From an uncultured Tateyamaria sp. (GTDB lineage: Bacteria > Pseudomonadota > Alphaproteobacteria > Rhodobacterales > Rhodobacteraceae), in assembly GCF_947503385.1 (NCBI RefSeq), contig NZ_CANNDO010000002.1, positions 124,001 through 188,000 of the forward strand: DNA of 64,000 bases, given 5' to 3'. This document shows positions 36,454 through 40,348 of the stretch, piece by piece. Positions within the stretch are counted from its first letter, which is position 1. Every line of letters begins with the position of its first letter. The position numbers and the translations under genes were made by a program. The notes under the pieces are model-generated. The model had not been told where the DNA came from. It worked only from the letters and a program-made list of their open reading frames with translations, and ran no database searches.

Positions 36454-36527
36454 GCGGGTATGGTGAAAAGGTATCACGGCAGCTTCCCAAGCTTTAGTTA
36501 CGGGTTCGATTCCCGTTACCCGCTCCA
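36454..36527 (+). tRNA. tRNA-Gly (anticodon CCC), probable prophage attachment site
   Basis: Acceptor arms GCGGGTA and TACCCGC pair perfectly, the anticodon loop is TTCCCAA (CCC, for GGG codons), the T-loop is TTCGATT and CCA is encoded at 36525-36527. The anticodon stem has one mismatch and one wobble. Phage-type sequence begins within about 120 bp of its 3' end, the normal arrangement when an integrase uses the tRNA 3' part as attB. Confidence 0.92.
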
Positions 36528-36641: not shown

Positions 36642-36658
36642 CGGGACATTGAGTCCCG
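36642..36658 (+). repeat. Inverted repeat GGGAC-N5-GTCCC, copy 1
   Basis: CGGGAC-ATTGA-GTCCCG. The same repeat with a 5 or 6-base spacer occurs at 36894-36909 and 37586-37600 just downstream of two promoters. Here no good promoter precedes it, although TTGCCC at 36603 stands at nearly the same distance as the -35 boxes of the other copies. Confidence 0.6.
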
Positions 36659-36850: not shown

Positions 36851-36879
36851 TTGCACTTATGGGCGCGCGCCCATATGTT
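36851..36879 (+). promoter_or_regulatory. Promoter with palindromic operator in the spacer, copy A
   Basis: -35 TTGCAC (36851-36856), 17-base spacer, -10 TATGTT (36874-36879). The perfect 18-base palindrome TATGGGCGCGCGCCCATA (36858-36875) fills the spacer. It is followed by the GGGAC/GTCCC repeat at 36894 and the gene at 36928. The same design is repeated at 37544-37572. A repressor or activator binding the palindrome would control entry of RNA polymerase directly. Confidence 0.7.
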
Positions 36880-36893
36880 CCAGTTATCGAAAC

Positions 36894-36909
36894 GGGACAA
36901 ACAGGTCCC
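36894..36909 (+). repeat. Inverted repeat GGGAC-N6-GTCCC, copy 2 (leader hairpin)
   Basis: GGGACAAACAGGTCCC, lying about 8 bases after the expected transcription start of promoter copy A. In RNA it forms a 5-bp hairpin; in DNA it could be a second operator. Confidence 0.65.
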
Positions 36910-36927
36910 ACAGATTGGAGATATTCG

Positions 36928-37491
36928 ATGAACCTGCACGAACAACTGCGCCCTGAGAATGCCCGGAAAATCACTGTCAAAGGTGGCCTGGCAACATTCT
37001 ACACGTACACCAACGGACGCGGGCAGCCTTGCGTAATGATCCTGAAAGGCCGCAGCCGCAAGGCAAAGCAATTCTGGTTTCGCTCTGACGCACGCCGCAG
37101 CGAATACATCGCACAACAAGTCCAGTCCATCTTAGCACGCAAGAGCGCGGCAGAGGAACGCCGCGCGGCCCGAAACAAGCCCCACAATTTGGAAACCGGC
37201 ATTATTCTCTACACCAATTGGGGTTACGACCAGACCAATGTCGAGTTCTACGAGGTGATCGACGTCCCGTCCAAATGCTACGTGATCCTGCAAGAAATCG
37301 GTGCGCCTTTGGTCCGGGGCGAAGAAAGCTTCATGTCAGGCAACAAGTTCCCTGACCCCGAATTGAAAATGGGCGAACCGATCAGGCGCAAAGTCGATAT
37401 GTCTGGCACCCGCCCAAGCGTCAGGATCAACAGCGTTGTTACCGCGTGGATCTGGGACGGTCAGGAAAAACTGTCGAGTTGGTACGCCTAA
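36928..37491 (+). CDS. Phage/plasmid-type protein with WGYDQTNVEFY motif, unknown
   Basis: 187 residues from the ATG at 36928 with GGAG upstream. The first half is basic (KGRSRKAKQFWFRSDARR, then ILARKSAAEERRAARN). The second half begins ILYTNWGYDQTNVEFYEVID and ends VTAWIWDGQEKLSSWYA. The WGYDQTNV-[DE]-FY motif recurs, as far as I can recall, in uncharacterised proteins of many phages and plasmids. Function unknown; the basic half suggests nucleic-acid contact. It is expressed from promoter copy A. Confidence 0.75.
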   Translation: MNLHEQLRPENARKITVKGGLATFYTYTNGRGQPCVMILKGRSRKAKQFWFRSDARRSEYIAQQVQSILARKSAAEERRAARNKPHNLETGIILYTNWGYDQTNVEFYEVIDVPSKCYVILQEIGAPLVRGEESFMSGNKFPDPELKMGEPIRRKVDMSGTRPSVRINSVVTAWIWDGQEKLSSWYA

Positions 37492-37543
37492 ACACCGGGG
37501 GCATCAGCCCCCGACTTTCTCAACTTTTCTTTGTCGATTATAC

Positions 37544-37572
37544 TTGCAAATATGGGCGTGCGCCCATATATT
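37544..37572 (+). promoter_or_regulatory. Promoter with palindromic operator in the spacer, copy B
   Basis: -35 TTGCAA (37544-37549), 17-base spacer, -10 TATATT (37567-37572). The palindrome spans 37550-37569 (ATATGGGCG-TG-CGCCCATAT apart from the two central bases). Aligned with copy A, the -35, palindrome, -10, leader repeat and spacing all correspond, while the genes downstream are unrelated. Confidence 0.7.
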
Positions 37573-37585
37573 AATGTCATCGACA

Positions 37586-37600
37586 GGGACAACAGGTCCC
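37586..37600 (+). repeat. Inverted repeat GGGAC-N5-GTCCC, copy 3 (leader hairpin)
   Basis: GGGACAACAGGTCCC, placed as in copy 2: about 8 bases after the expected start of transcription from promoter copy B and 24 bases before the ATG. Confidence 0.65.
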
Positions 37601-37624
37601 ACGAATGAGAAAAGGAGATTGTCG

Positions 37625-37930
37625 ATGAAAACAGAAATCATCATCCCGAAAAATGACAATGACGGTTCCGACAACGGTGCGTTGATCGAAACCACCATTG
37701 CCAGCATGTGCAGCCTCTACGGCGGTGCCACAGTGTACGCCGCACAAGGATACTGGAGCAATGAAGCCGGTCGCCTGTTTCGCGATGATGTTGCCGTTAT
37801 CGTCAGCGCCGCAACCGACAAGGCCGCAGCGCAAAAAGAACTCCGGGCACTGGCCCGCGACATTCTCAACGCCACGGACCAAGAGGCAGTGTTTCTGTCG
37901 GTCGGTGGCGATGCTGAGATTATCGAGTAA
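37625..37930 (+). CDS. Small acidic phage protein, unknown
   Basis: 101 residues from the ATG at 37625 with a strong AAAGGAG site. Acidic N-terminus (PKNDNDGSDNG), then an alternating alpha/beta core with YGGATVYAAQGYWSNEAGRLFRDDVAVIVSA. The arrangement loosely recalls small DUF3574-like proteins, but this is not enough for a family call. It is expressed from promoter copy B and is likely coregulated with the gene at 36928. Confidence 0.7.
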   Translation: MKTEIIIPKNDNDGSDNGALIETTIASMCSLYGGATVYAAQGYWSNEAGRLFRDDVAVIVSAATDKAAAQKELRALARDILNATDQEAVFLSVGGDAEIIE

Positions 37931-37984: not shown

Positions 37985-38455
37985 ATGCCTGTTGCAATTG
38001 TCATGTCAAACGGATCGGCAATCCCGGCGGTCCTCAGCGAGAACACCGAAAGCGCGTTGCTGGATGCCCTGCGCAACCTGTCTGACGCACCTGCACTGAA
38101 AACCGCCCATGAGGCGCGTCAATGGCTACAAAGCCTGCCAGCACCGTCCGGGTGGTTTGGTAGCCCAACAGAGGCGCGGGCACATGTTCAGCGGATGCAC
38201 GAACCCGTTCCGGCCCCCAGCGGTGACGAAGTGCGTCACGCGCGCGAAAGCCTGTCCATGTCCAGGGCGGACTTTGCGACAGCGCTCGGCTTCGGCGGGA
38301 ACACCAACACGCGCCACAAATTGATGCACGATATTGAGGTCGAGGCCGTGGATCGCAAGAGCGGCAGGCAGCGAGTTCTGAATGCGCAGGCAACTATGCG
38401 GATGCGGGCACTATTGTCCGATGCGAGCATCGATGCGGTTAAGAGCCACGACTGA
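37985..38455 (+). CDS. Phage protein with C-terminal helix-turn-helix
   Basis: 156 residues from the ATG at 37985 (GAAGGA upstream). Residues 81-118 (DEVRHARESLSMSRADFATA, then LGFGGNTNTRHKLMHDIE) read as an XRE-like helix-turn-helix: two helices with the turn at ALGFGG. The N-terminal 75 residues are unrecognised. It may be the DNA-binding regulator acting on the palindromic promoters just upstream, but this is inference. It is convergent with the leftward early operon, 18 bp away. Confidence 0.65.
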   Translation: MPVAIVMSNGSAIPAVLSENTESALLDALRNLSDAPALKTAHEARQWLQSLPAPSGWFGSPTEARAHVQRMHEPVPAPSGDEVRHARESLSMSRADFATALGFGGNTNTRHKLMHDIEVEAVDRKSGRQRVLNAQATMRMRALLSDASIDAVKSHD

Positions 38456-38468
38456 ACGGCCCTTAACC

Positions 38469-38785
38469 CTCCTTTAGTGAACAGTTTTCTTGCGCGCATC
38501 ATGCACGACGAACATGCGGCAAAAACGGCTGCGCTTATCTTCAAACTCCGGCTCGCGACCCAGCTTGCGAAAAAACGCACGGCACTGCGCATCGGTTGCC
38601 GGACGCATATCGCATGACACTGACGCCTCGCAGTGGCCGTCCGGCCCCAGCGTCACAATGAAGGTTGTGTTCCCCAACTCACCCAGAAAGCTGCGCGTCC
38701 CGGGCGGCGCACAAGGGGGCGTGCCAGCGTTAGGATCTACAAGATGCATAACGCCGGATAGGTCAGCTTCAATCATAACGGCTCC
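38469..38785. repeat. 317-bp direct repeat, copy A
   Basis: Identical to 40032-40348 except for one base (C at 38552, G at 40115). It covers a whole 100-codon gene with its ribosome site and a few bases on each side. The copies start 1563 bp apart in the same orientation. Confidence 0.97.
38474..38776 (-). CDS. Unknown phage protein, duplicated gene copy A
   Basis: 100 residues with four Cys (PPCAPPG, GHCEASVSC, AQCRAF, RFCRMF make five including the first). It ends in a basic tail (VVHDARKKTVH). A second gene at 40037-40339 encodes the same protein except Glu76 here against Asp there (GREPEFE against GRDPEFE). It is the last gene of the leftward early operon and overlaps the upstream gene by 4 bp. 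No family recognised. Confidence 0.75.
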   Translation of the reverse strand: MIEADLSGVMHLVDPNAGTPPCAPPGTRSFLGELGNTTFIVTLGPDGHCEASVSCDMRPATDAQCRAFFRKLGREPEFEDKRSRFCRMFVVHDARKKTVH

Positions 38786-40031: not shown

Positions 40032-40348
40032 CTCCTTTAGTGAACAGTTTTCTTGCGCGCATCATGCACGACGAACATGCGGCAAAAACGGCTGCGCTTA
40101 TCTTCAAACTCCGGGTCGCGACCCAGCTTGCGAAAAAACGCACGGCACTGCGCATCGGTTGCCGGACGCATATCGCATGACACTGACGCCTCGCAGTGGC
40201 CGTCCGGCCCCAGCGTCACAATGAAGGTTGTGTTCCCCAACTCACCCAGAAAGCTGCGCGTCCCGGGCGGCGCACAAGGGGGCGTGCCAGCGTTAGGATC
40301 TACAAGATGCATAACGCCGGATAGGTCAGCTTCAATCATAACGGCTCC
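40032..40348. repeat. 317-bp direct repeat, copy B
   Basis: The second copy of the repeat at 38469-38785, with one base difference at 40115. Confidence 0.97.
40037..40339 (-). CDS. Unknown phage protein, duplicated gene copy B
   Basis: 100 residues, identical to the protein at 38474-38776 except Asp for Glu in the GR[ED]PEFE segment. It follows the recombinase-like gene by 8 bp with the ribosome site GGAGCCGTT. Both copies are intact and expressed from the same operon, so the duplication raises dosage or is very recent. Confidence 0.75.
   Translation of the reverse strand: MIEADLSGVMHLVDPNAGTPPCAPPGTRSFLGELGNTTFIVTLGPDGHCEASVSCDMRPATDAQCRAFFRKLGRDPEFEDKRSRFCRMFVVHDARKKTVH

Follow-up and report, generated by a model that had tools for sequence, protein, structure and literature searches.

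The closest described systems are the acr-aca operons, in which Aca1-Aca10 are the regulators compared here (PMC9410906, PMC8434428; accessible portions of both). In the accessible portion of the published Aca work, one inverted repeat always lies within the predicted core promoter (PMC9410906). Here we analyzed a 64,000-nucleotide stretch, henceforth the window, of contig NZ_CANNDO010000002.1 from an uncultured Tateyamaria sp. (positions 124,001 to 188,000), in which two promoter modules of one design occur on the plus strand at 36851-36930 and 37544-37627. The locus resembles acr-aca in being a predicted mobile-element operon with a helix-turn-helix (HTH) gene after the effector gene (11 of 11 loci) and in having an inverted repeat inside the core promoter (in 19 modules from 11 elements). 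It differs in that there is no known anti-CRISPR, the effector being a DUF3574 protein, and in that one module is copied before several genes and carries a covarying leader structure. The modules suggest a family of mobile elements that controls early, possibly anti-defence, genes by its own repressor. We consider it probable that the locus is an early operon under Aca-like autorepression and a further control at the RNA level, with the start sites, the repression and the protein P0002 as binder taken as presumptive parts of that reading. The features concerned are:

36851-36879, plus strand: promoter 1, predicted from sequence only; -35 TTGCAC at 36851-36856, 17-nt spacer, -10 TATGTT at 36874-36879.
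36858-36875, plus strand: palindrome 1, operator-like, TATGGGCGCGCGCCCATA; fills the spacer, with a 2-base overlap with the -10.
36886-36930, plus strand: leader 1, from the predicted start A36886 to the ATG (36928); repeat GGGAC-N6-GTCCC at 36894-36909.
36928-37491, plus strand: gene 1, encoding P0004 (187 amino acids, phrog_37844), with relatives on plasmids and phages.
37544-37572, plus strand: promoter 2, predicted in the same way; -35 TTGCAA at 37544-37549, 17-nt spacer, -10 TATATT at 37567-37572.
37551-37568, plus strand: palindrome 2, operator-like, TATGGGCGTGCGCCCATA.
37579-37627, plus strand: leader 2, from the predicted start A37579 to the ATG (37625); repeat GGGAC-N5-GTCCC at 37586-37600.
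37625-37930, plus strand: gene 2, encoding P0001 (101 amino acids, DUF3574), whose model is closest to a phage SAM (S-adenosylmethionine) lyase.
37985-38455, plus strand: gene 3, encoding P0002 (156 amino acids), the proposed repressor, 54 bases after the DUF3574 gene.

A base-by-base check of all elements bore out the shared design of promoter, palindrome and leader repeat that a preliminary description had reported at both sites. The dyad has the form TATGGGCG-NN-CGCCCATA in both modules. It fills the 17-base spacer as described but is not exactly inside it, as it reaches the first two bases of the -10. Six bases separate the -10 from the leader, both leaders start ATCGA, and the repeat lies 8 (module 1) or 7 (module 2) bases past the predicted start, in agreement with the earlier estimate of about 8. 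The sequence ATGGGCG-NN-CGCCCATAT was found only at these two sites in the 4.57 Mb genome and was absent from 60 other genomes; the exact 16-mer has two occurrences in the window. With up to three mismatches, the palindrome count in the window was at chance level (7 observed vs 7.65 expected); the argument therefore relies on the exact copies and the relatives. Among 61 genomes, the leader-repeat pattern was matched only in the window's own (2 matches). MerR-type activation was considered and rejected, the spacer being 17 nt.

We collected relatives by searching with the DUF3574 protein, which gave 30 proteins. Seven rows carried an organism name: Ruegeria, Pacificoceanicola, Phaeobacter, Roseobacter, Pelagimonas and, twice, Acuticoccus. 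Eleven loci combined a full-length DUF3574 gene with readable upstream DNA. These are the window, the Phaeobacter plasmids pP24_g (L315) and pGal_G40 (L316), Pacificoceanicola (L209), Roseobacter SK209-2-6 (L210), an uncultured Rhodobacteraceae bacterium (L211), Acuticoccus kalidii (L212), Roseibium (L213), Nioella (L214), Chelatococcus (L215, with near copies L220 and L221) and L219, whose DUF3574 protein is identical to one named Acuticoccus sediminis. Two further records, neither with a readable upstream promoter, were left out of the counts: L216, matched over residues 55-101 only, and L312, whose contig begins at the DUF3574 ATG. The module stands upstream of DUF3574 in all 11 loci. With 3 kb read at each, a P0002 relative lies downstream in all 11 as well, directly after DUF3574 in 10; in L210 one small gene with its own module stands between. 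P0002 is the only regulator gene common to the stretches read. This strengthens the earlier nomination of the HTH protein at 37985 as the candidate regulator, and we infer that it binds the palindrome.

In total, 19 modules of the 11 elements were collected. Eleven were found by gene position, before DUF3574; motif filters supplied the others, whose geometry is therefore in part a product of the search. The preliminary description had proposed a search for the composite motif. A strict scan for promoter, dyad, inner hairpin, Shine-Dalgarno sequence and outer helix in 327 records (2.9 Mb, including overlapping records) gave 11 distinct matches, all belonging to the module family described here; controls that were reversed or complement-only gave none. 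The scan picks up 11 of the 19 collected modules. The exact palindrome occurred in 80 stretches of viral contigs, none with the leader repeat and three (L043, L047 and L049) with a rough -35/-10 flag. The composite spacer pattern was found in two viral contigs, SK209 and L226, and a composite-like pattern in two of 295 genomes, the window's and G274, with one match (G075) to the reversed-pattern control. The phage contig L226 (1927-2415, minus strand) has similar promoters, with ATGGGATTAATCCCAT and a close variant of it between -35 and -10, but the leader and the genes that follow are different. A class-wide profile search for DUF3574 matched 1 of 385 genomes, the window's own; a family search with P0001 matched 3 of 295 and a profile search with P0002 matched 6 of 394, own genome included in both. 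P0002 occurs without DUF3574 in the stretch read at L318, and its relative in L322 is broken by two stops. Locus searches with a single protein gave 9 and 18 stretches, which are unconfirmed.

We compared the operators across elements. The dyad is located in the spacer in all 19 modules, and its letters vary between elements. The half-sites are ATGGGCG in the window, ATGGGCT in L210, L212 and L219, ATGGGTA in L209 and L211, GGTGCT in the Phaeobacter phage-plasmids, TAGTACT and TAGTGCA in L213 and L215, and AGTAGGG in L214. Within an element, the same dyad precedes unrelated genes: two copies in the window and two in Roseibium, and three in each of the two Phaeobacter phage-plasmids and in Roseobacter SK209. 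Over 18 bases, dyads differ by 1.0 on average within elements and by 6.2 between elements, and those before the same gene in different elements differ by 5.6. Of 20,000 label shuffles, one was as low. This comparison used 12 even-dyad copies from seven elements, leaving out G40 (the sibling of P24) and the odd-length dyads of L213, L214 and L215. Constancy within an element and change between elements is the behaviour expected of the operator of an element-encoded regulator. Judged by these sequence comparisons, the dyad behaves as the operator of a regulator carried by the element itself would. The comparison upholds the view that the control element was copied before unrelated genes, and it lends support, at the level of sequence, to a small regulon under one spacer-binding protein. 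Lack of conservation among related prophages had been named as a result that would refute the preliminary description; related elements do share the design. Of the palindrome, the place in the spacer is kept and the sequence is not.

Which protein would bind the dyad is a separate matter. The main lysogeny repressor, or some other protein of the element, could use the palindrome as its operator, leaving P0002 a different role. The link between recognition helix and operator is broken by L210, and the phage-plasmids encode further HTH and LuxR-type proteins, as that explanation would allow. Against this, module, DUF3574 and P0002 occur together, with gene 1 missing from the 1.2 kb read upstream, in the large genome contigs L209, L211, L212 and L214 and in the IMG/VR record L219. 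We regard another regulator as unlikely. The two Phaeobacter plasmids have repA/repB with phage head and tail genes and are also IMG/VR records of the same length. Both of these module-bearing phage-plasmids also carry quorum genes of LuxR/LuxI type (L315:36275-37508 and L316:36575-37848).

P0002 itself consists of an N-terminal domain without an assigned fold and a C-terminal Xre-type HTH domain with structural likeness to Aca10, Aca2, HigA2 and MqsA. It differs from Aca2, whose HTH is N-terminal, in its extra N-terminal domain and C-terminal HTH. There was no Aca model among its Pfam, NCBIfam or PADLOC matches, Aca families not having been searched as such. The likeness to HigA2 and MqsA, together with the conserved two-gene neighbourhood and a weak match to the MqsA family TIGR03830 (E 0.0049, far below the family cut-off), would suit a toxin-antitoxin operon of reversed gene order, as in HigBA and MqsRA. 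DUF3574 would then be the toxin, P0002 an autorepressing antitoxin, and the leader would limit translation of the toxin. Those systems likewise have a second gene with an Xre-type HTH and autoregulation through a promoter palindrome. Autorepression is common to this explanation and the Aca-like operon; the gene roles differ. MqsA has an N-terminal zinc domain with cysteine pairs, whereas P0002 has no cysteines and hence no such domain. The same promoter stands before other genes, with several separate targets here. An mRNA interferase is not what the DUF3574 model looks like; its likeness is to a SAM lyase or PII-like fold. DUF3574-like genes, looked at by themselves, are also present at 27-36% identity in three phages of Pelagibacter and one of Staphylococcus. 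A toxin-antitoxin operon is accordingly, in our judgement, also unlikely.

Structurally, the DUF3574 model comes closest to a phage SAM lyase; the lead is modest, with designed ferredoxin folds within 1.0 Z. In the accessible part of its description, the phage SAM lyase Svi3-3 has a GlnB-like (ferredoxin-like) fold with Glu69 as the catalytic glutamate (PMC7877911), and the DUF3574 model shares that fold. The phage SAM lyases compared were Svi3-3 and T3 SAMase (PMC8406200, likewise its accessible part); the likeness is by model only, as profile comparison of DUF3574 with phage SAM lyase gave no sequence match. Gene 1 is a member of WGYDQTN, a common family encoded in at least 566 stretches of viral contigs and in 1973 plasmid records, and has relatives in plasmid transfer regions, one of them near ssb and an antirestriction gene. 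The element genes may have an anti-restriction function. A literature search for DUF3574 with phage returned nothing relevant, which cannot establish the module as unpublished.

We then compared the leaders. The second control that had been proposed at the leader hairpin gains support from the sequence comparison, and the leader element proved larger than the hairpin. An outer helix, missed earlier, joins the first 6-7 bases of the predicted transcript to the spacer between Shine-Dalgarno sequence and AUG and encloses the small hairpin. ATCGAA (36886-36891) can pair with TTCGAT (36924-36929) in leader 1, and ATCGACA (37579-37585) pairs with TGTCGAT (37620-37626) in leader 2 (predicted fold z -2.41). 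The single-sequence minimum free energy (MFE) fold of leader 1 keeps the hairpin and lacks the outer helix. Relatives have different strands, such as ATTGAC/GTCAAT and ATCGG/CCGAT (L210), GTCAAC/GTTGAC (L212) and ATCAAC/GTTGAT (L214). Cognate strands form 5.2 Watson-Crick pairs on average vs 3.7 for strands of different elements, and none of 20,000 permutations reached the cognate mean, kinship being ignored. The test used 17 of the 19 leaders, leaving out two near-identical G40 copies and shifting L213_DUF by one base; a 12-leader subset gave 5.7 vs 3.8 pairs, again with 0 of 20,000 permutations. Changes on both sides were seen at five of the six outer-helix pairs, those at pairs 3 and 6 depending on one leader each, and pair 6 is non-standard in 7 of 19 leaders. 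Four of the 17 (P24_3, L213_DUF, L213_2 and L215) have no five-pair outer helix. The inner hairpin varies with its pairing kept (GGGAC/GTCCC, GGGAT/ATCCC, GGGC/GCCC, GAGCG/CGCTC and GGGCG/CGCCC). Since the strands lie tens of bases apart at variable distance and vary together, the leader is best explained as RNA, and it looks like an RNA structure. A search of the leaders against Rfam gave no match. We rejected the idea that the leader repeat is another operator copy, as the repeat does not track the operator sequence between elements.

Pairing could also matter in DNA. An Frpo-like promoter, which would work as single-stranded DNA on the strand that enters the cell, would agree with the gene 1 relatives in plasmid transfer regions. 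Here, too, a promoter coincides with a palindrome; the dyad folds as single-stranded DNA, and the MFE fold of copy 1 pairs most of the -10 with upstream bases. The Frpo structure, in the accessible part of its description, mimics double-stranded -35 and -10 elements (PMC11541004). In our folds the spacer forms the main stem, the -35 stays unpaired in either copy and copy 2 pairs only the first bases of the -10. The dyad also changes sequence yet stays symmetric, as a protein site does. We rejected this very improbable explanation, since the -35 and -10 are not both within the duplex stem in the DNA folds.

In the Aca-like operon that we favour, the spacer of a normally spaced (17 nt) promoter would be the operator of a repressor that the element itself encodes. 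Gene 1 and the DUF3574 operon would be transcribed at once when the element enters a naive cell, which lacks the repressor. As P0002 accumulates, it would bind the palindromes as a dimer and shut out RNA polymerase, switching off its own operon and every gene with a copy of the module. Leader pairing would restrain translation, protect the 5' end or both, perhaps with P0002 or another protein bound. The early timing, the translational effect and the anti-defence role of the genes are inferred. Aca2 reportedly controls by both DNA and RNA binding (Birkholz et al. 2024), and the likeness lies in promoter repeats and a structured leader on one message; the difference is that the leader hairpin here does not follow the operator sequence between elements. 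By analogy, P0002 could conceivably have such a dual role. It is doubtful, if possible, that P0002 forms a separate regulator class, binding the palindrome as DNA and the leader as RNA and holding early anti-restriction genes at two levels. Under that dual-layer reading, element-specific operators would mean that co-resident elements do not cross-silence their entry genes, following the logic of immunity groups. If the favoured operon is right, the module marks entry-phase genes and could serve as bait for unknown anti-defence genes among the phages and plasmids of Alphaproteobacteria. The elements, whose operators and recognition helices differ, would form a series for testing joint repressor-operator change, and the leader would be a compact example in which the 5' end pairs with the start region.

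The modules are situated in a prophage of about 39.8 kb in tRNA-Gly(CCC), both of them just inside its attL, with head and tail genes between attL and attR. The attachment site is:

36483-36527, plus strand: attL, the last 45 bp (3' end) of tRNA-Gly, with an exact repeat at attR (window-equivalent 76278-76322).

The attR falls beyond the window, and the integrase gene adjoins it (L323:11212-12258). A third GGGAC-N5-GTCCC inverted repeat lies close to attL (36643-36657), without a promoter of the module design. The protein at 40348, put forward earlier alongside P0002 for binding tests, gave no match in Pfam and PHROG comparisons. Downstream of P0002 there is an exact 300-bp direct duplication (38469-38768 and 40032-40331), by which most of a 100-amino-acid open reading frame is present twice (38474-38776 and 40037-40339, minus strand).
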